Shown: positions 38,858-47,153 of the stretch, piece by piece
Layout of the letters: every line of letters begins with the position of its first letter
How positions within the stretch are numbered: position 1 is the stretch's first letter
From: Nocardioides iriomotensis
GTDB taxonomy: Bacteria; Actinomycetota; Actinomycetes; Propionibacteriales; Nocardioidaceae
Direction: 5' to 3'
Assembly (NCBI RefSeq): GCF_004168035.1
Contig: NZ_SDPU01000001.1
Span: 1 to 64,000 of the forward strand
Length of the DNA: 64,000 bases
Translations under genes and position numbers: made by a program
The notes under the pieces: model-generated
Told to the model about the DNA's origin: nothing
Seen by the model: the letters and a program-made list of their open reading frames with translations, nothing else
The model's database searches: none

Positions 38858-38887
38858 GGGAGAGGTCTGATGGCGGGAGAGGTCTGA
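38858..38887 (+). promoter_or_regulatory. Duplicated ribosome-site/start creating a five-codon leader frame
   Basis: The string gggagaggtctgatggc occurs twice, directly abutting. The first copy begins a frame at ATG 38870-38872 that codes for M-A-G-E-V and stops at TGA 38885-38887, which overlaps the ATG (38887-38889) of the GNAT gene as TGATG. Ribosomes ending the tiny frame could restart on the gene, so the duplication may raise or tune its translation. Confidence 0.75.
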
Positions 38888-39729
38888 TGGCCGACCCGGG
38901 ACGCGAGATCCTGCCGGATCCCGAGGAGCACCTGACCGACGGCTGGGATCCCGACACTCCCGACGACGACACCCTGGTCCGGCAGGCCGCCCTGGTCCAC
39001 GCGTCCTGGGCGGTGACCGTGGGCGCGGCGCTCGGCCGCCCGCACCGGACCACCCCGCGGTGGGCGGCCGCCTGCATCGCCGACCGGGGCGCGCTCAGCA
39101 ACCCGGTCGTGCTCCTCCAGCCGCCCCGCGAGGATCTCCGGGCCCTGCTCGCCGAGGTCGACGAGGTGGTCGCGCCGCCGGCGCCGTACTTCCTGGTCAG
39201 CCCGTTCCCCACCCCCGACCTCCGACCGCACGGGCTCGAGCTGATCGGGCACCCGCCACTGATGGTGCGCTTCCCCGCGCCGAGCCACCGGTCCGACCGT
39301 CCGCTGCCGGCCGGCGTCGAGCTGCGCGAGGTCACCGACGCCGACGGCCTCGCGGTGGCGGAGCGCGTGCTGGTCGAGGGCTACCCGATGCCCGACCTCC
39401 AGCCCCTCGTGCGCGGCTCGGTGCTCGGCGAGCCGCTGCTCGCCCACCGCACGCGGGTGTGGGTGGCGTACGTCGACGGCGCGCCGGCCGCGGTCGCCTG
39501 CGCACACCTGCACGCGCGCGCCACGCTGGTCGAGTACGTCGCCGCGCTGCCCGCCGCGCGAGGTCGCGGTGCGGGCGCGGCCGTCACGTGGGCCGCGACG
39601 ACGGCCGACCCGGACCTGCCGGCGATGCTGGTCGCCAGCGACGACGGGCGCCCGCTGTACGCGTCGATGGGGTTCGTGGCGATCGAGCGGTGGACGGCGT
39701 GGCTGCGGCCGGGTCAGAACGTCACGTAG
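38887..39729 (+). CDS. GNAT family N-acetyltransferase
   Basis: 280 residues. The GNAT fold lies in the second half: AGVELREVTDADGLAVAERV (strand 1), VWVAYVDGAPAAVACAHLHA, VEYVAALPAARGRGAGAAVT (acetyl-CoA loop R-G-x-G-A), DGRPLYASMGFVAIERWTAW. The first 130 residues are a family-specific N-terminal region. The substrate is unknown. The start is set by the duplicated leader described above. It ends overlapping the convergent DUF6518-like gene by 16 bases. Confidence 0.87.
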   Translation: MADPGREILPDPEEHLTDGWDPDTPDDDTLVRQAALVHASWAVTVGAALGRPHRTTPRWAAACIADRGALSNPVVLLQPPREDLRALLAEVDEVVAPPAPYFLVSPFPTPDLRPHGLELIGHPPLMVRFPAPSHRSDRPLPAGVELREVTDADGLAVAERVLVEGYPMPDLQPLVRGSVLGEPLLAHRTRVWVAYVDGAPAAVACAHLHARATLVEYVAALPAARGRGAGAAVTWAATTADPDLPAMLVASDDGRPLYASMGFVAIERWTAWLRPGQNVT

Positions 39730-40400
39730 AGCAGCCCGGACACCTGCAGCCACCACAGGCCGCCCAGCGCGACGCCGGCGAGAACCAACGCTCCCGCGAG
39801 GCCCCGCAGGCACGCCCGGACGCCGCACGAGCGCACCGCGTGCACGAGCAGCGTCGTGCCCACGACCGCGAACACCACCGCGGCAGGAAGCACACCCCGC
39901 GCCGGGAGATCGCCACCGGTGACCAGCAGCCACAGGGTCGGACCGGCTCCGACGACCAGCGCCGCGGTCACGATCCCGAGCGCCTTGGGCCCCGATCGTT
40001 CCCGGGCGTCCGCACTCGCCAGGCCGCCGAGCAGTCCCATCAAGGCCCCGCCGCCGACGGCAGCCACGGTCCAGGCGAGACCGCCGCTGTCCGAGAGCTG
40101 GGCAACGGCCGCGTGGCGCCCGTCGACCAGCCACTGCATCCCGTAGTAGCTGACGATCAGCACCAGTCCGGTCAGCGCTCCGGCTGCGGCCCCCCGGCCG
40201 ATGTGGCCACCCGCCCAGGCCCAGCCGGCCCCGAACGCGAGCAGCACCCAGGTGAACTGCGACGTCGCCACCACTGAGATCGCGCCGAGGTCCCAGCGCC
40301 ACAGCAGCACCTGGAAGACCCCGCCGACCAGCACGGCGACAGCCACGAGCCCCGCGACGGAGGCGGTACGACGCATCAGCACGGACGCATCCTCGCCCAC
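39714..40400 (-). CDS. DUF6518-like integral membrane protein
   Basis: 228 residues, six to seven membrane helices: SVAGLVAVAVLVGGVFQVLL, FTWVLLAFGAGWAWAGGHIG, AGALTGLVLIVSYYGMQWLV, LAWTVAAVGGGALMGLLGGL and others. I recall the same shape and the YYGMQ segment from DUF6518 proteins of unknown function. It starts 25 bases after the MarR gene ends, so it is probably in that operon. Confidence 0.72.
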   Translation of the reverse strand: MGEDASVLMRRTASVAGLVAVAVLVGGVFQVLLWRWDLGAISVVATSQFTWVLLAFGAGWAWAGGHIGRGAAAGALTGLVLIVSYYGMQWLVDGRHAAVAQLSDSGGLAWTVAAVGGGALMGLLGGLASADARERSGPKALGIVTAALVVGAGPTLWLLVTGGDLPARGVLPAAVVFAVVGTTLLVHAVRSCGVRACLRGLAGALVLAGVALGGLWWLQVSGLLYVTF

Positions 40401-40425
40401 CCCGGCGGCGGACCCGCGCAGGCGG

Positions 40426-40860
40426 TCACGCCTCGCGGGTGGCCAGCTCGTCCAGCACGGCGCGGAACGTCCGGTAGCGACGCTCCCCCACCTCCGCCCG
40501 CCACCGGTCCTCCACGCGTGCCACTCGCCGCGCGACCTTGCGCACCGTGCGGGTGCCGAGCGGGGTACGTCGCACGACCCGGAGCCGCCGGTCCGCAGGG
40601 TCCGCCACCGTGACCAGGTGCCCGGACTCGACGAGCTGGGTGACGAACTGGCCGCAACCCTGCTTGGTCATCCGGACCCGCTCGGCGAGGTCGGTGACGC
40701 TGATGCCCTCGTCGGGAACCAGGGTGATCACCCGGAAGTGTGACTGCCGCAGCCCCTGCCAGTCCTCGCCGGCGAACGCGTCGCGTACCTCCTCGATGAG
40801 GGTGCCGAGGAGCATCAGGACGTGCTTCTCGTCCTCGGCGATCCCCTTGACGAAACTCAT
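40426..40860 (-). CDS. MarR family transcriptional regulator
   Basis: 144 residues. The winged helix reads LRQSHFRVITLVPDEGISVT, then DLAERVRMTKQGCGQFVTQL and the wing VTVADPADRRLRVVRRTPLG, flanked by the long dimer helices typical of MarR. It precedes the DUF6518-like gene and faces the phosphotransferase gene; two identical AAGCAACTTT boxes sit right at its start, so it likely represses both directions. The inducing ligand is unknown. Confidence 0.92.
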   Translation of the reverse strand: MSFVKGIAEDEKHVLMLLGTLIEEVRDAFAGEDWQGLRQSHFRVITLVPDEGISVTDLAERVRMTKQGCGQFVTQLVESGHLVTVADPADRRLRVVRRTPLGTRTVRKVARRVARVEDRWRAEVGERRYRTFRAVLDELATREA

Positions 40861-40899
40861 AAAGCAACTTTACAGTCATCTGGTCGTCAAGCAACTTTC
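40861..40899. promoter_or_regulatory. Paired AAGCAACTTT boxes, probable MarR operator
   Basis: aagcaacttt occurs at 40862-40871 and again at 40889-40898, 27 bases apart (start to start), and each box with its flanking A is itself a near palindrome (aaagcaacttt). The AT-rich boxes lie between divergent genes, directly upstream of the MarR start codon. Confidence 0.7.
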
Positions 40900-40932
40900 C
40901 GATCTCGGCGGACCAGGCGAATCGAGGCAGCC

Positions 40933-42072
40933 ATGGCCGACCGGTCCCTCCTGGGCGGCGCCGACGTCAGCGACGAGCACCTGCGCGCGATGGTCGCCCA
41001 CCAGCTCGACACCTCCCCCGAACGGCTCGGCGAGCTGACCTGCGACGTCGAGGAGGTCGCCTACGACATCCCGGCGATCACGACCGCCGGCCGCTGGTGG
41101 GTGCGCGGGACCGCCGACACCGGGGACGGAGAGGCCTCGTTCGCGTTCTTCGTCAAGGCGGTGCAGGCGTGGGAGCGCTCACCGGTCTTCCAGTACGTGC
41201 CCGAGGAGCTCCGCGAGTTCGCCGCGAGCAGCTTCCCGTTCCGCACCGAGGGCGCCGCCTACCGCTCCGACCTGGCCGACCGGCTGCCGCCGGGCCTCCG
41301 CATGCCGACGGCGTACGACGTGCACGAGATCGACGACCGCTCCTACGCGCTCTGGCTCGAGGCGGTGCCGGCCGTCACCGCGACGTGGGACCTCGACCGC
41401 TACCGCCGGGCCGCCCGGCTGCTCGGCCGGATGGCCGCGAGCCGCGACGTCGCGCCGCTCGCGCTGGTCGGCGACTTCCCGTTCCGGGTGCGCGACTACG
41501 TCGAGGGCCGGCTCGCGAACCAGGTGGTCCCGGCACTGCGCTCCGACGTGTGGCAGCACCCGGCGATCGCGGCGACCTGGGACCCGGAGCTTCGGGAGCG
41601 GGTGCTCGCCTCGCTCGACCACCTCGCTGAGTGGGCCGACGAGGCCGACGCGCTCCCCCCGGCGGCCACCCACGGCGACGCCTGCCCCAACAACCTGCTG
41701 GTCACCCCGCTCGACCCCGACGGGTTCGTGCTGATCGACTACGGGCTCTGGAACGCGCTGCCGGTCGGCTTCGACCTGGGCCAGCTGCTCGTCGGCGACG
41801 TCGTCATCGGCCGCCGGCCCAGCGCGCGGCTGGCCGAGACGGAGGCGGCGATCGTGCCGGCGTACGTCGAGGGCCTGCGCGCCGAGGGCAGCGACGTCGG
41901 GGAGGCGACGGTGCGCCGCGGGCACGCGCTGATGACGTACCTGTTCAACGGTGTCTCCGCACTGCCGTTCGAGGAGCTCGACCTCGGTCAGGTGCCCGAC
42001 GCGCTCGCGGCGCTGGCCGCCGAGCGCGCCGCCGTCGCGCGGTTCTGCCTCGACCTCGTCGACGCGACCTGA
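40933..42072 (+). CDS. Aminoglycoside-phosphotransferase-fold kinase
   Basis: 379 residues. The APH/choline-kinase signature is present: ATHGDACPNNLLVTPLD (H-G-D-x4-N catalytic loop) and FVLIDYGLWNALPVGFDL (D-Y-G metal site), with FAFFVKAVQAW giving the ATP-binding Lys. Such kinases act on aminoglycosides, macrolides, choline or other small molecules; this one lacks features to name the substrate. Being divergent from a MarR regulator suggests inducible expression, but antibiotic resistance is not shown. Confidence 0.88.
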   Translation: MADRSLLGGADVSDEHLRAMVAHQLDTSPERLGELTCDVEEVAYDIPAITTAGRWWVRGTADTGDGEASFAFFVKAVQAWERSPVFQYVPEELREFAASSFPFRTEGAAYRSDLADRLPPGLRMPTAYDVHEIDDRSYALWLEAVPAVTATWDLDRYRRAARLLGRMAASRDVAPLALVGDFPFRVRDYVEGRLANQVVPALRSDVWQHPAIAATWDPELRERVLASLDHLAEWADEADALPPAATHGDACPNNLLVTPLDPDGFVLIDYGLWNALPVGFDLGQLLVGDVVIGRRPSARLAETEAAIVPAYVEGLRAEGSDVGEATVRRGHALMTYLFNGVSALPFEELDLGQVPDALAALAAERAAVARFCLDLVDAT

Positions 42073-42075
42073 CGG

Positions 42076-43593
42076 TCAGCCGGCCGAGGGGCGGGCCCGC
42101 CGACGGAGCCACCCGGCGAGCAGCAGGACCGGACCTGCGACGGCGAGGCTTCCCATGATGTCGATGCTCCTGAGCGGCTCGACGTCGACCTGCAGGTCGA
42201 CGGGGAGCAGCGGCGGCACGTCGCCGACGGTCTCGCCCGTGTACTCGTAGACGTCGAACCCGCGCACCAGGTCGTTGCCGTAGCCGTAGAACGAGCCGTC
42301 CCGCTCGATCTTGTTGGTCTTGAACGACCAGGTGTCGGAGTCGGGGAGGACGTAGTGACCGACCTCCCTGATCCCGACCCCGTCACCGAGACCGACGGCC
42401 ACCGGCGAGCCCGCGAAGTCCGCGAGACCGGACAGGTCGAGGACCCGGACGCCCTGGGAGTACCAGGCGATCGTGAGCAGCTTCTGGTCCGGGTACATGC
42501 GCAGCACGTGTGACGTGCAGGTCGAGCCGTCCTGCGGCTGGACCGCGGGGATGAACCACGTGCCGATCTTCTCGGGCGACGCCTCCTTGGCACCGGTGAT
42601 GTCGTAGAGGTGCAGCCCGCCGCCCGGGCACTCGGCGCTCGCCGCGGCGCCGGCCCGCTCGTCGGTGACGACGAGGACCTCGCGCTCCGTCCCGTCCGCA
42701 CGGGCGAGGGTGACGGGGTCGGCCTGGTGAGCGACGTTGATCGCCGGGTCGAGGATCTGGGACACGATCGTCGGGTTCGCCGGGTCCTCGGTGTCGAGCA
42801 CGAGCGTCTGGGACAGCGCCGCGGAGTAGGCGCGGGTGCCGGACTCGTTGAAGGTGATGTCGTGCGACTCGGAGCCCAGCGAGAGCGGCACGAAGGGGAT
42901 CGCGAAGTCGCGGACCTTCTTCGGCTCGGCCGGCTGGGAGACGTCGTAGATCGTGATGGTCGGCTGCGTGCTGGTGAGCAGGTCCGAGTTGGAGTTGTAG
43001 AGGTAGTCGCCGCTCGGGTGGATCGTCATGTTGTGCGAGCCGCGCGGCACGTACAGGTAGGACACGGTCCGGGGCCGGGTCGGGGTCGTGATGTCGACGA
43101 TGACCGTGCCGGACGCCGACGGGTCGAGGTGGAGGTCGCGACCGCACTGCGACGCCGCTCCCTCGGCGCCGAACGTGCCGTCCGCGGTGTAGCTGGCCAG
43201 GATCCGGCGGCCGTGACGCCACACCTGGATGTCGCCCTGGCTGACGGCGCAGTCGTAGACCGCGGCGACGTGCGGCTGCTCGGGCCGCGTGATGTCGACG
43301 ATCTGCATGCCGCCGCGCAGGGTGCCGGCGAGGGCGTACTCCTTGCGGCCGACCTTGACGAACTCGATGTCCGAGCCGTTCTGCGCCTCGCCGCTGTCGT
43401 CGTACTGGAGGTTGGCGACGTGCCTCATCGCCTCCCCCTCACCGTCCGTCGCGACCTGCAGCCCCCGCGTGTTGGTCGGTAGGTCGCCGACGTCCTCGCC
43501 GTGCGCTGCGGCCGGAGAGGCCGGGAGCAGCGCGAGACCCGTGGCCGCCACGGCCGCGAGCAGTCCGGACACGGTGCGGTGCGGGAGCGGCAT
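42076..43593 (-). CDS. LVIVD-repeat beta-propeller protein, cell-surface anchored
   Basis: 505 residues. A signal peptide (LLAAVAATGLALLPASPAAA) opens a propeller with LVIVD-type strands: GGMQIVDITRPEQPHVAAVY, TVIVDITTPTRPRTVSYLYV, TITIYDVSQPAEPKKVRDFA, GLHLYDITGAKEASPEKIGT. His clusters (GSHNMTIHPSGDY, ESHDITF) recall selenium-binding/methanethiol oxidase-like propellers. The end has one membrane helix (LAVAGPVLLLAGWL) and an Arg-rich tail, so it stays in the membrane facing out. Its ligand is unknown. Confidence 0.85.
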   Translation of the reverse strand: MPLPHRTVSGLLAAVAATGLALLPASPAAAHGEDVGDLPTNTRGLQVATDGEGEAMRHVANLQYDDSGEAQNGSDIEFVKVGRKEYALAGTLRGGMQIVDITRPEQPHVAAVYDCAVSQGDIQVWRHGRRILASYTADGTFGAEGAASQCGRDLHLDPSASGTVIVDITTPTRPRTVSYLYVPRGSHNMTIHPSGDYLYNSNSDLLTSTQPTITIYDVSQPAEPKKVRDFAIPFVPLSLGSESHDITFNESGTRAYSAALSQTLVLDTEDPANPTIVSQILDPAINVAHQADPVTLARADGTEREVLVVTDERAGAAASAECPGGGLHLYDITGAKEASPEKIGTWFIPAVQPQDGSTCTSHVLRMYPDQKLLTIAWYSQGVRVLDLSGLADFAGSPVAVGLGDGVGIREVGHYVLPDSDTWSFKTNKIERDGSFYGYGNDLVRGFDVYEYTGETVGDVPPLLPVDLQVDVEPLRSIDIMGSLAVAGPVLLLAGWLRRRARPSAG

Positions 43594-43663
43594 GGCGGGT
43601 CGCCTTCGGTTCGGGAACGGTCGAGATGCTCAACGAGTGGTTCCCCGCGCGGTTACTCCTCAC

Positions 43664-44776
43664 TCAACGGCGCCGCGCCAGCCGCTCGAACTGCTGCTGG
43701 TCGATCAGCACGATCGGCTGACCGGTGCGGATCCGCTCGCGCACGCCGAACAGCTTGATCCCCTCCGCGGCACCGACCCCGCCCGCGCGCATGCTCCCGG
43801 TCACGACGACGGTGGTGGAGTCGGTGACGCGGCTCTGCACCCGGGCGCCCGCCTTCCGGGCCCGGGCGGTCGCCTCCGTGCGCGGCAGGTCCTCGAGCCG
43901 GCCGCTGAACACGATGCACTGCCCGCGCAGCGACCGCGGCGGCCGGCCGGGACGCATGTCGATCTGCCGCAGCGCCGACAGGGCGTGGACGGCGTCGAAC
44001 GCGTCGAGGTAGCGCTTGGACTTCGCGCCGGTGGCGTGCCAGATCCAGCTCTTGAACGCGTCGCTGCACTCGAGCGCGGCGATCGAGCCGATCGACACGG
44101 ACTGGTTCCACCAGACCTCGCCGGACAGCAGCGTCCCCGCGAGCAGGCCGACCTGGTAGATGTCGTCGTGCGGACCCCACACCGACCCGGCGGTGACGTT
44201 GCCCGGCGCGAAGTCGCCCTGCAGCCGCGAGACGGGTGACGGGCTGGTGTCGAGCACCAGCTTGGAGATGCCGAAGTCGCCGAGCACCAGCCGGCCGTCG
44301 CGCAGGAACACGTTGTCCGGCTTGATGTCGCGGTGCAGCAGCCACACCGCGTGCATCCGCTGCAGAACGGAGAGCAGCGCGCGGATCTCCCGCCTCACCT
44401 TGGCCTCCGACCAGACCAGGCCGCCGTCCTCGACCGCGTCCCAGACGGTCCCGTCCGCCATGTACTCGAACACCAGGACGTGCCTCCGGCGCTGCCGGGA
44501 GCCACGGCCGGTCGCGTCGACGAAGACGTCCAGCAGGTCGACGACGCGCTCGTCGCCGGCGAGCAGCCGACCGAAGTACGCCTCGCCGTGCCAGTCGTCG
44601 AGGCTGCGGCAGACCTTGATGGCCACCTCGCGTCCCGGCCGGCCGGACGGCGTGAGCCGGTGGCCGAAGTAGGTCTGCCCGAAGCCGCCCTCGCTGAGCA
44701 GCCGCTCCACGACGTACGGCGTGCCCGCGTCGTTGTGCAGGAGCGTGCCCGCCCGGAGCCTGGACATGTCGGTCAT
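43664..44776 (-). CDS. Soluble Ser/Thr protein kinase fused to a C-terminal BRCT domain
   Basis: 370 residues. Kinase domain: Gly loop LSEGGFGQTYFG (28-38), ATP Lys in VAIK (54), catalytic loop HRDIKPDN (148-155), DFG (167-169); the usual APE segment is altered. There is no membrane helix or PASTA repeat. After a short linker, residues 282-367 read as a BRCT domain: LRGQCIVFSGRLEDL, TEATARARKAGARVQSRVT, TTVVVTGSMRAGG and PIVLIDQQQFERLA. BRCT domains bind phospho-peptides or DNA ends in NAD+-ligase and eukaryotic repair proteins. The fusion suggests a kinase directed to DNA metabolism or to phosphorylated partners; no repair gene adjoins it. Confidence 0.88.
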   Translation of the reverse strand: MTDMSRLRAGTLLHNDAGTPYVVERLLSEGGFGQTYFGHRLTPSGRPGREVAIKVCRSLDDWHGEAYFGRLLAGDERVVDLLDVFVDATGRGSRQRRRHVLVFEYMADGTVWDAVEDGGLVWSEAKVRREIRALLSVLQRMHAVWLLHRDIKPDNVFLRDGRLVLGDFGISKLVLDTSPSPVSRLQGDFAPGNVTAGSVWGPHDDIYQVGLLAGTLLSGEVWWNQSVSIGSIAALECSDAFKSWIWHATGAKSKRYLDAFDAVHALSALRQIDMRPGRPPRSLRGQCIVFSGRLEDLPRTEATARARKAGARVQSRVTDSTTVVVTGSMRAGGVGAAEGIKLFGVRERIRTGQPIVLIDQQQFERLARRR

Positions 44777-44798
44777 CTTGCACCAGGGCTCTGGCTTG

Positions 44799-45713
44799 TC
44801 AGGTGGCCGGTTCCTCCGGTACGGCGGCCGCTCCGCGCGTGGCCGCGGCGACCCCGAGCACGGCCACGACGAGCCCGATCCCCTCGCGCGGCGTCAGGGT
44901 CTCGCCGAGCACGAGCCAGGCCATCACGGCGGTGACCGGAGGCGACAGGAAGAACACGCTCGACCCGGCGCCGGCGCCGCCATGTCGCACGAGCACGCCG
45001 AGCAGGACGAGGCCGACGATCGAGTTCACGACCGCCAGGTACGCCAGCACGCCGAGCGCGCGGGACCAGTCGTGGACGGGGTCGCCACCCTCCACCACCG
45101 CGGCCAGGATCAGCAGCGGCGGGCCCGACACGGCGAACTGGATCGCGGCCGACCACAGCGGGTCCGGCCCGTGGCCGATCCACCGCTGCCCGATGGTGCC
45201 GAGGCTCAGCGAGAGCACGCCGACCACGGCGAAGCCCAGGCCGACGGCGCCGCCGGCCTGGTCGACGTCGGGTCCGAGCACGATCAGCACGCCGGCGACG
45301 CCGACCACGAAGCCGAGCAGCTGGACGCGGGTGAGCCGCTCGCCCATCAGGGCGGCGGCGATGGCAGCGGTGAGCACCGGGCTGAGCGAGTGCAGCAGCG
45401 CACCCATGGTGGCGCCCAGCCCGGCGGCGAAGGCGAGGTACATGGCCCCGAACTGCAGCCCGTTCATCACGAAGCCGACGCCCGAGATCCGCAGGGCCGT
45501 GCCGCGGTCCACCCGGAGCGGGCCGCGCAGCAGCCGGGCCAGGGTCGCGACGATGACGGTGGCGAGGACGAACCGCCACCCGACGAGCGCGAGCGGCTCC
45601 ATCGCGGTGACGCCGTACGGCCCGGCGATGTAGCCCGACGACCAGACCAGCACGAAGCCCAGGGCAGGCAGGAACGGCAGGGAGACCGCGGTCCCGAGCG
45701 TGCGCGTGGACAT
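44799..45713 (-). CDS. EamA family (DMT) transporter
   Basis: 304 residues, ten membrane helices in two EamA halves; FLPALGFVLVWSSGYIAGPY starts the first and VGVLSLSLGTIGQRWIG the second. The conserved Glu in GERLTRVQLLGFVVGVAGV and again GETLTPREGIGLVVAVLGV ends each half. DMT transporters export metabolites such as amino acids or take up small molecules; the substrate cannot be assigned. ATG 45713 is preferred over GTG 45722. It ends 22 bases before the kinase-BRCT gene starts on the same strand. Confidence 0.88.
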   Translation of the reverse strand: MSTRTLGTAVSLPFLPALGFVLVWSSGYIAGPYGVTAMEPLALVGWRFVLATVIVATLARLLRGPLRVDRGTALRISGVGFVMNGLQFGAMYLAFAAGLGATMGALLHSLSPVLTAAIAAALMGERLTRVQLLGFVVGVAGVLIVLGPDVDQAGGAVGLGFAVVGVLSLSLGTIGQRWIGHGPDPLWSAAIQFAVSGPPLLILAAVVEGGDPVHDWSRALGVLAYLAVVNSIVGLVLLGVLVRHGGAGAGSSVFFLSPPVTAVMAWLVLGETLTPREGIGLVVAVLGVAAATRGAAAVPEEPAT

Positions 45714-45743
45714 CACCGCCACGCTAGGACATGGCGGCCGGCG

Positions 45744-47153
45744 TCAGCGCGGGAAGGTCTTCCCGGCCAGCTCGCGGACGACGAGCACCCCGTCGCTGAG
45801 GAGCGCGCGCACGGCCACCGATCCGCCGGCGAGCCCCGTGAGCTCCTGGTCGAGGGTCTCGGGCGTGCCGTCGCCGTCGTAGTCGGCCGCGGCGTCCTGC
45901 CCGAGCGCGGAGTCGGGCCCGAGGTCGAGGCGTCTCTCGTCGAGGCACCAGGCAGTGGCGCCGCAGCTCGCGAGCGTGCCGCTGTAGGTCTCGACGGTCG
46001 GCGTAGGGGTCGGCGAGGGGTCCGGCGAGGGCGACTCGCTCCGCGGCGGCGAGGGCTCGGACGGCTGCGGTGCGGGCGCAGCCGGCTGCGGCGCGGGCTG
46101 GCCCGGCGGCGCGGGAGCCGGCTTGGGGGCGGGCGCGGGGTCCGCCTTGGGCTTGGGCTTCGGCGTGGGCGTGGGCGACGGCTTCGGCGACGGCGACGGG
46201 TCGTCCTGCTTCTTCGGGCCGTCACCGCGCTTCGGCCGGGTGCCACCCTTGCCGTCGCCGTCCCGGTCCTTGTGGTGGTGCTTCTTCCGGGGCTTGTCGT
46301 GGTCGGCAGGGGCGTCGGGCGACGGGAGGACGAAGATGCCGGTGCGGTAGCCCGCCTCGAAGGCACGGACGAGCGCGACGTAGTAGTCCGACGGGTTGTA
46401 GCGCAGGATCGCGGCGTCCATGGCGTCGCTGTCGCGCAGGTCCGTGCCGGAGCACAGGTAGTCGCCCGCGGCGAGCGCGGCGTCGTCGAGGTCGTGCGGG
46501 TTCATCCGACCGTCGCCGTCGCCGTCGCGCCCGGCCCAGGCCCACGTGCTCGGGATGAACTGCATGGGGCCGACCGCGCGGTCCCAGGTGTCGTCGCCGT
46601 CGAGCCGGCCGCCGTCGGTGTCGTGGATCGCGGCGACCGGGCCCTTGCCGTTCAGCGCGACACCGATGATCTCCGGGCGGGAGACGCCGTCGGTGGCCAG
46701 CACCGACCCGCCGTACCGGCCGTGGTCAGACTCGACCCGGCCGATGCCCGCGAGGAGTGTCCAGGGCAGGTGGCAGCCGGGGTCGGTGCTCGCCAGGGTC
46801 GCCGCCGCGTCCTGGTACGCCGACAGAGCCGCCTGCGGCAGGTCGTGCGAGGCGAGCTGGCTCGCGGTGAACACGTGCCCTCCGCGCGGGCTGTCGATCC
46901 GCACCTTCTTGTGCCGGTCCTTGGTGGCGACCAGGATCGTGGACCGCTCGACGGGCTGCGGCTGCACCGGGTCGAAGCGGACCTCGCGGTGCGGCTGCAC
47001 CACGACCGACGCGGCCGACTCGGCCGCGGCCTGCTCGGCGGCGTCGTTCGCGGACGCCGAGGCGGTCAGCGCGAGGGTGAGCGCGACCGCGGCCACGGCC
47101 GGCAGCTTGGCTGCCTGCAGTAGTCGGTCGAGGTCCAGATGCTGTGCCGGCAC
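45744..47153 (-). CDS. Secreted lytic transglycosylase with Pro/Lys-rich tail
   Basis: 469 residues from GTG 47153 (GGGGAGAAG upstream); the signal peptide PAVAAVALTLALTASASA follows. The SLT domain has LLAGIGRVESDHGRYGGSVL (catalytic Glu), DRAVGPMQFIPSTWAWAGRD and the calcium loop DGDGDGRMNPHDL of GH103-like MltB enzymes, then ILRYNPSDYYVALVRAF. A long low-complexity linker (Pro, Lys, Ser repeats, His cluster KKHHHKDRD) leads to a C-terminal segment DYDGDGTPETLDQEL that could bind calcium. It cleaves peptidoglycan glycan strands with 1,6-anhydro ends. Confidence 0.9.
   Translation of the reverse strand: MPAQHLDLDRLLQAAKLPAVAAVALTLALTASASANDAAEQAAAESAASVVVQPHREVRFDPVQPQPVERSTILVATKDRHKKVRIDSPRGGHVFTASQLASHDLPQAALSAYQDAAATLASTDPGCHLPWTLLAGIGRVESDHGRYGGSVLATDGVSRPEIIGVALNGKGPVAAIHDTDGGRLDGDDTWDRAVGPMQFIPSTWAWAGRDGDGDGRMNPHDLDDAALAAGDYLCSGTDLRDSDAMDAAILRYNPSDYYVALVRAFEAGYRTGIFVLPSPDAPADHDKPRKKHHHKDRDGDGKGGTRPKRGDGPKKQDDPSPSPKPSPTPTPKPKPKADPAPAPKPAPAPPGQPAPQPAAPAPQPSEPSPPRSESPSPDPSPTPTPTVETYSGTLASCGATAWCLDERRLDLGPDSALGQDAAADYDGDGTPETLDQELTGLAGGSVAVRALLSDGVLVVRELAGKTFPR

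Follow-up and report, generated by a model that had tools for sequence, protein, structure and literature searches.

Eukaryotes have kinases joined to a phosphate-reading module, such as the FHA-kinases Chk2 and Rad53, and in these proteins the reader serves processive or feedback phosphorylation. In bacteria, the accessible parts of two reports describe YabT of Bacillus subtilis as a Hanks-type kinase that lacks a sensor domain, depends on a basic C-terminal region for its activation by DNA, and has RecA as a substrate (PMC3708118; PMC6333020). YabT, which is membrane-anchored, was the only DNA-activated bacterial Ser/Thr kinase found in the literature searched. For single BRCT domains, the 5′ phosphate site of yeast Rfc1 is assigned to T166, G167, R174 and K209 in the text available (PMC9359705). 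The Ser/Thr-Gly pair and the alpha2 lysine of this pocket also form the phosphopeptide pocket of BRCT domains (PMC10386641, in part), and the portion at hand of a study on XRCC1 places poly(ADP-ribose) in that pocket of BRCT1 and DNA elsewhere on the domain (PMC6334254). Among the matches listed by full-text literature searches, in a collection that covers subscription papers in small part, none described a fusion of kinase and BRCT in a bacterium; papers that came up as the single match of a search name BRCT only in connection with BRCA1 or within a reference.

Such a fusion is encoded in the window, the whole 64,000-nucleotide stretch of DNA analyzed here, which comes from a Nocardioides-like actinobacterium (Table 1). 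The plus strand of 43664-44776 reads into an in-frame stop, and the kinase-BRCT frame lies on the minus strand, with the BRCT domain beginning about 12 residues after the kinase domain. The initial annotation had proposed a soluble kinase joined to a BRCT, and this architecture was borne out by profile matches to PF00069 and PF00533, its domain limits by Pfam and NCBIfam matches, and its solubility by a largest 19-residue Kyte-Doolittle mean of 0.88, which leaves the protein without a membrane helix. The same annotation had named two ways to be wrong, a C-terminus that is not a BRCT and a BRCT that belongs to a separate gene. Neither applies, since profiles recognize the C-terminus as a BRCT and the two domains form a single gene in four genomes. 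Three further genomes of the family carry the fusion intact, at 55-67% identity, so the kinase-BRCT is one gene and not an artefact.

Table 1. Features of the kinase-BRCT gene and its neighbors in the window.
Feature	Coordinates	Strand	Details
505-aa gene	42076..43593	-	Downstream of kinase gene; no Pfam match at E 1
Kinase-BRCT gene	43664..44776	-	370 aa; ATG start at 44776, TGA stop
BRCT domain	43673..43930	-	Residues 283-368; phosphate-site residues S291, G292, R299, K341
Linker	43931..43966	-	Residues 271-282; PGRxPR kept in 4/4 fusions (alignment)
Hanks-type kinase domain	43967..44776	-	Residues 1-270; Pfam match 21-226
EamA-family transporter	44799..45722	-	Upstream of kinase gene, 22 bp gap
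SLT_2-like gene (transglycosylase, weak match)	45744..47153	-	Start uncertain, 47153 or 47258

The kinase half is conventional in most respects. PF00069 matched it with an E value of 1.2e-18 and 67.9 bits (cut-off 31.7), and all four fusions exceeded the curated cut-off. The glycine loop, beta3 Lys, alphaC Glu, HRD and DFG are all present. The initial annotation had named Lys54, HRDIKPDN and DFG; Lys54, HRD Asp150 and DFG Asp167 are in place, and together with Glu65 and Asn155 they are invariant in the four fusions. The APE motif, which is not required for membership of the Pfam kinase family, is absent: the window protein has APG (190-192), its homologue from the same genus (G003) has APR, and the two homologues from genus g7 (G252 and G125) have APK-E. 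A Glu thus stands one place beyond the APE position in two of the four homologues, and Arg255, at the position of the usual partner of the APE Glu, is invariant in the fusions. The alteration noticed earlier is therefore real, and because of the shifted Glu and the invariant Arg255 it is weak evidence for the unusual activation that had been read from it. We regard it as a minor trait of this small fusion group and not as strong evidence of a new activation mode.

The C-terminal domain was recognized by several profiles. PF00533 matched residues 283-328 with an E value of 2.4e-6 in the whole protein, and with 2.4e-7 and 31.3 bits (cut-off 21.3) when the last 98 residues were searched alone. 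The G125 homologue passed this cut-off with 26.2 bits, the G252 homologue fell just under it with 20.5, and the whole G003 protein gave no match at E 0.1; cut out as domains, all four BRCTs matched PF00533 at E 0.1. In NCBIfam, residues 282-364 matched the end of PRK06195, a model named DNA polymerase III epsilon and the best match of the domain (E 7e-8 in a whole-protein search, 7e-9 with the isolated domain), and residues 280-329 matched a LigA BRCT, both far under the whole-protein cut-offs of those models. A domain-long profile comparison with the LigA BRCT gave a probability of 96% and an E value of 2.5e-9.

In hhalign, the kinase BRCT reached 3e-20 against exonuclease-BRCTs versus 6.4e-15 against LigA, a gap that is suggestive because the profiles differ in depth (template Neff 2.98 and 2.05). 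The alpha2 region has a longer form in both the kinase BRCTs and the exonuclease-BRCTs, and a shorter one in LigA. It is thus suggested by profile comparison that the kinase BRCT is somewhat closer to the DEDDh exonuclease-BRCT proteins (Pfam RNase_T plus BRCT), its best match among those compared, than to LigA. The four kinase BRCTs grouped together in a BRCT tree (FastTree support 0.985, ultrafast bootstrap 100), which gives no resolution on their descent from exonuclease-BRCTs. Predicted structures had a mean pLDDT of 45 for the whole protein and 62 for the BRCT alone, too poor to place surfaces. With the latter model, Foldseek returned no match at E 0.001, and VIA-align placed the BRCTs of LigA, Rfc1 and TopBP1 among unrelated folds (Z 2.0-3.2, FtsY first).

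A BRCT-only profile search found a match in at least 296 of the 396 phylum genomes, with exonuclease and LigA frames ranked among the matches listed. Sixteen places, picked mainly for short frames, were examined, and no kinase was among them. Eight were RNase_T exonucleases, including one (L196) in the window's own genome; five of these exceeded the Pfam BRCT cut-off, and the other three, L196 included, are BRCT proteins only by the profile built in this analysis. Six were LigA (two by Pfam, four by eye), one (L201) was a BRCT-only piece at a contig end, and one (L197) was rejected as a chance match in a MarR-type frame. The remaining places listed were mostly frames of roughly 670-1050 aa, a LigA-like length. 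By the Pfam cut-off, the BRCT proteins of the own genome among scored candidates are two, LigA and the kinase-BRCT. The exonuclease at L196:1594-3183 (G000:C47), for which no Pfam BRCT match at 0.001 was found, carries a further cysteine-rich C-terminal region after its BRCT-like domain.

The phosphate-site residues were compared in a joint alignment of four kinase BRCTs, eight exonuclease-BRCTs and eight LigA BRCTs (L106, L108 and L111 left out). Ser/Thr291, Gly292, Arg299 and Lys341 are kept in all four kinases, and the equivalent residues in 8/8 exonuclease-BRCTs and 8/8 LigA. S291, G292 and R299 align with yeast Rfc1 chain positions 166, 167 and 174, and K341 occupies the column of the GSK/SSK lysine of LigA and the exonucleases, a placing that depends on the alignment: it falls off the phosphate lysine in a direct comparison with LigA and on it once exonuclease-BRCTs are added. 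The kinase BRCTs are also the most basic of the three groups, with a trimmed-core net charge of +5 to +7, against -1 to +3 in the exonuclease-BRCTs and -5 to +1 in LigA. In the own genome, the LigA BRCT has a net charge of -2 and the exonuclease-BRCT 0, and the kinase domain to which the basic BRCT is attached is near neutral (-2). The kinase BRCT shares its class and its four phosphate-site residues with the single BRCTs of LigA and Rfc1, which are attached to a ligase or a clamp loader, and differs from the LigA domain in its longer alpha2 and in its charge, that of LigA being near neutral or acidic; from its exonuclease counterparts it differs in its catalytic partner and in being more basic. 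The sequence gives good reason to expect that the kinase BRCT binds phosphate or DNA, and points to no particular pathway. The earlier proposal that the domain binds phosphate gains support from the retained pocket and the basic charge, which do not separate DNA from phosphopeptide as ligand.

The fusion is rare. In overlapping genome samples, profile searches found it intact in 4 of 294 family genomes, in the same four among 391 order genomes, in two of 393 class genomes (both from the window's family) and, among 396 phylum genomes, in its own genome; within the genus it is present in two of seven (own and G003). About five to six first-look candidates were scored per genome with cut-offs of 1e-12 to 1e-24, and with so few candidates and such strict cut-offs distant kinase-BRCT fusions can be missed. 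The single place in the phylum search that reached model position 311 (G446) proved to be a PASTA kinase. A contig search with two fusion sequences yielded no related locus, and one with four yielded Nocardioides silvaticus and one Erysipelotrichaceae kinase (28% over residues 21-224). Viral contigs gave nothing in a first search and 49 weak kinase matches in a later one, none past query residue 228. Among 114 plasmid records none covered 80% of the protein, and the best-covering match (residues 20-310) was discarded as a fusion, being a kinase with WD40 repeats and without a BRCT.

The homologue in G003 is 66-67% identical to the window protein and those in G252 and G125 55-56%. In the closest pair, G252-G125, purifying selection is seen in the kinase (dN/dS 0.067/0.392) as well as in the BRCT (0.168/0.677). 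Constraint is weaker and less clear between the window protein and G003 (0.247/0.508 and 0.259/0.337). One further genome of genus g7, G248, has a decayed copy in which a segment resembling residues 1-79 directly adjoins another that resembles BRCT residues 335-359 (L056:9869-10166), and G249 has a kinase-only relative of about 39% identity. Given its rarity (4/294), the decayed copy and the kinase-only relative, the gene is accessory, dispensable and easily lost. The kinase-BRCT thus adds a new combination of domains, rare and accessory, to a known family of kinases.

The genomic context is equally variable. The SLT_2-like gene, the EamA transporter, the kinase and the 505-aa gene form a minus-strand run with short gaps. 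At E 1e-20, the SLT_2-like gene has a match in 7/7 genus genomes (perhaps a paralogue in G004 and G005), the EamA transporter has relatives of 30-31% identity, located elsewhere, in two of six other genomes, and the 505-aa gene matches in one of seven, its own. A variable zone, which spans 38887-45722 in the window, is bordered by the SLT_2-like gene. The kinase is part of this broad zone in the own genome (G000) and also, between the SLT_2-like gene and the homologue of 38887, in G003, and it is absent from the zone in G002. In the latter, the SLT_2-like gene adjoins homologues of 27631 and 37603. A conserved neighborhood was ruled out, the neighboring genes being accessory or differing between genera, and no functional partner could be read from it. 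No repair or SOS neighbor was recognized. Control by SOS or PafBC was likewise rejected: the window gave no match to a LexA-like or PafBC-like consensus motif, and upstream of the kinase-BRCT homologues a stretch of 300-400 bp was free of LexA-like sites.

What, then, might the fusion do? It may combine sensor and kinase in one protein and respond to broken DNA or to phosphorylated partners. We tentatively favor, with a confidence that stops a little short of even, a cytosolic single-gene sensor-kinase whose BRCT either guides it to the ends or gaps of DNA or lets them activate it. The C-terminal domain, of the single-BRCT class of DEDDh exonuclease-BRCT, LigA and Rfc1, would bind DNA, most likely by contacting a phosphate where the DNA has a 5′ end, a nick or a gap. 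Binding would concentrate the N-terminal kinase on DNA and bring copies together, resulting in trans-autophosphorylation, and the kinase on DNA would then phosphorylate proteins near the break; a role in the damage response or against foreign DNA could follow. That the BRCT would recruit the kinase to phosphates of DNA and make it more active there is argued by analogy with YabT, which also lacks an extracellular sensor and has a basic C-terminal region. DNA activation was demonstrated for YabT and is proposed here for the kinase-BRCT. The two differ in that YabT has a transmembrane helix and a DNA-binding stretch that is disordered in the crystal, as far as the accessible text describes it (PMC3708118; PMC6333020), whereas the kinase-BRCT is soluble, without such a C-terminal helix, and ends in a BRCT.

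The four retained pocket residues, the basic charge of the domain, the purifying selection between G252 and G125, and the position of the nearest BRCT relatives on nucleases and ligases would favor DNA reading. Against it stand the pocket residues shared with phosphopeptide-binding BRCTs (PMC10386641, in the parts available), the example of XRCC1 BRCT1, whose pocket takes up poly(ADP-ribose) and whose DNA contact lies outside it (PMC6334254), the lack of a repair or SOS neighbor or motif in the window, the alignment-dependent placing of K341, the weaker constraint between the window protein and G003, and the dispensability of the gene. In a bolder form, which we consider rather doubtful, a one-protein DNA-break kinase would have acquired an exonuclease-type BRCT, made it strongly basic and come to be switched on by 5′-phosphorylated ends, as a minimal functional analogue of the eukaryotic damage kinases used in the damage response or against invading DNA. 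Should DNA ends or phosphate marks prove to be its signal, the fusion would offer a soluble two-domain system for studying such signaling on the purified protein, with a small number of point substitutions, and a bacterial counterpart of the proteins that combine kinase and reader in eukaryotic damage signaling. The reader domain of Chk2 and Rad53 is other than a BRCT, and no kinship is claimed.

The main rival, which we hold to be unlikely, is a phospho-reader: the BRCT would bind phosphoserine or phosphothreonine, either of a substrate or of its own kinase, and phosphorylation would thereby become processive or subject to feedback. The Ser/Thr-Gly pair and alpha2 Lys kept in 4/4 fusions are those of the phosphopeptide pocket as well, and three single BRCTs prefer phosphoserine peptides according to the available part of the same source (PMC10386641). 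However, the Thr/Ser-X-Lys motif that it gives for phosphopeptide BRCTs reads Gly-Ile/Leu-Lys in all four kinases, the domain is strongly basic, and its match is to the LigA/exonuclease/Rfc1 class, of which the Rfc1 member binds DNA. Moreover, S180 is the sole Ser/Thr of the activation loop that is invariant in the four fusions.

A defence function, in which host processes are shut down by the kinase once its BRCT has sensed the free ends of incoming phage or plasmid DNA, would fit the patchy presence of the fusion, its variable zone, the decayed copy in G248 and the setting of the kinase-only relative, which in G249 follows a co-oriented GmrSD-family gene at a distance of 57 bp. We nevertheless give it a low probability. 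No defence gene was recognized beside the four fusions among the neighbors run against Pfam or PADLOC (part of them), and the PADLOC matches of the kinase-BRCT are generic (mad6, 72.8 bits; PD-T4-6 model PDLC04042, 62.8 bits). Of two other kinases of the own genome, one reaches 228 bits (mad6) and 254.9 bits (PDLC04042), and the other 217.5 bits (mad6) and 240.9 bits (PDLC04042). Since the scores of these ordinary kinases exceed those of the kinase-BRCT by a factor of three to four, membership of PD-T4-6 or Mad6, with which the protein shares the Hanks kinase fold and for which no partner gene was recognized, was rejected.

It is equally improbable that the protein is an ordinary soluble kinase whose BRCT binds neither phosphate nor DNA and serves only as a protein-protein module for dimerisation or docking: some single BRCTs do pair with other BRCTs (PMC10386641, in part), and the own-genome LigA and the exonuclease with a BRCT-like domain could be partners, but such a role alone would call for neither the full set of four pocket residues nor the charge bias.

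Some minor observations concern the relatives of the gene. In G249, the kinase-only relative and the GmrSD-family gene (L055:9643-12435) form a possible pair of kinase and type IV nuclease, with ArsR-like and P-type ATPase-like genes (by eye) nearby. A palindrome of about 70 nt lies upstream of the kinase gene in G003 (L052:9283-9353), and one of its arms recurs at G003:C1:1241103. The kinase genes of G252 and G125 sit among neighbors other than those in the window and G003, and near them are related proteins of 283-386 aa, one in G252 (L053:10585-11745) and two in tandem in G125 (L054:11915-13931), with a propeller-like look by eye.
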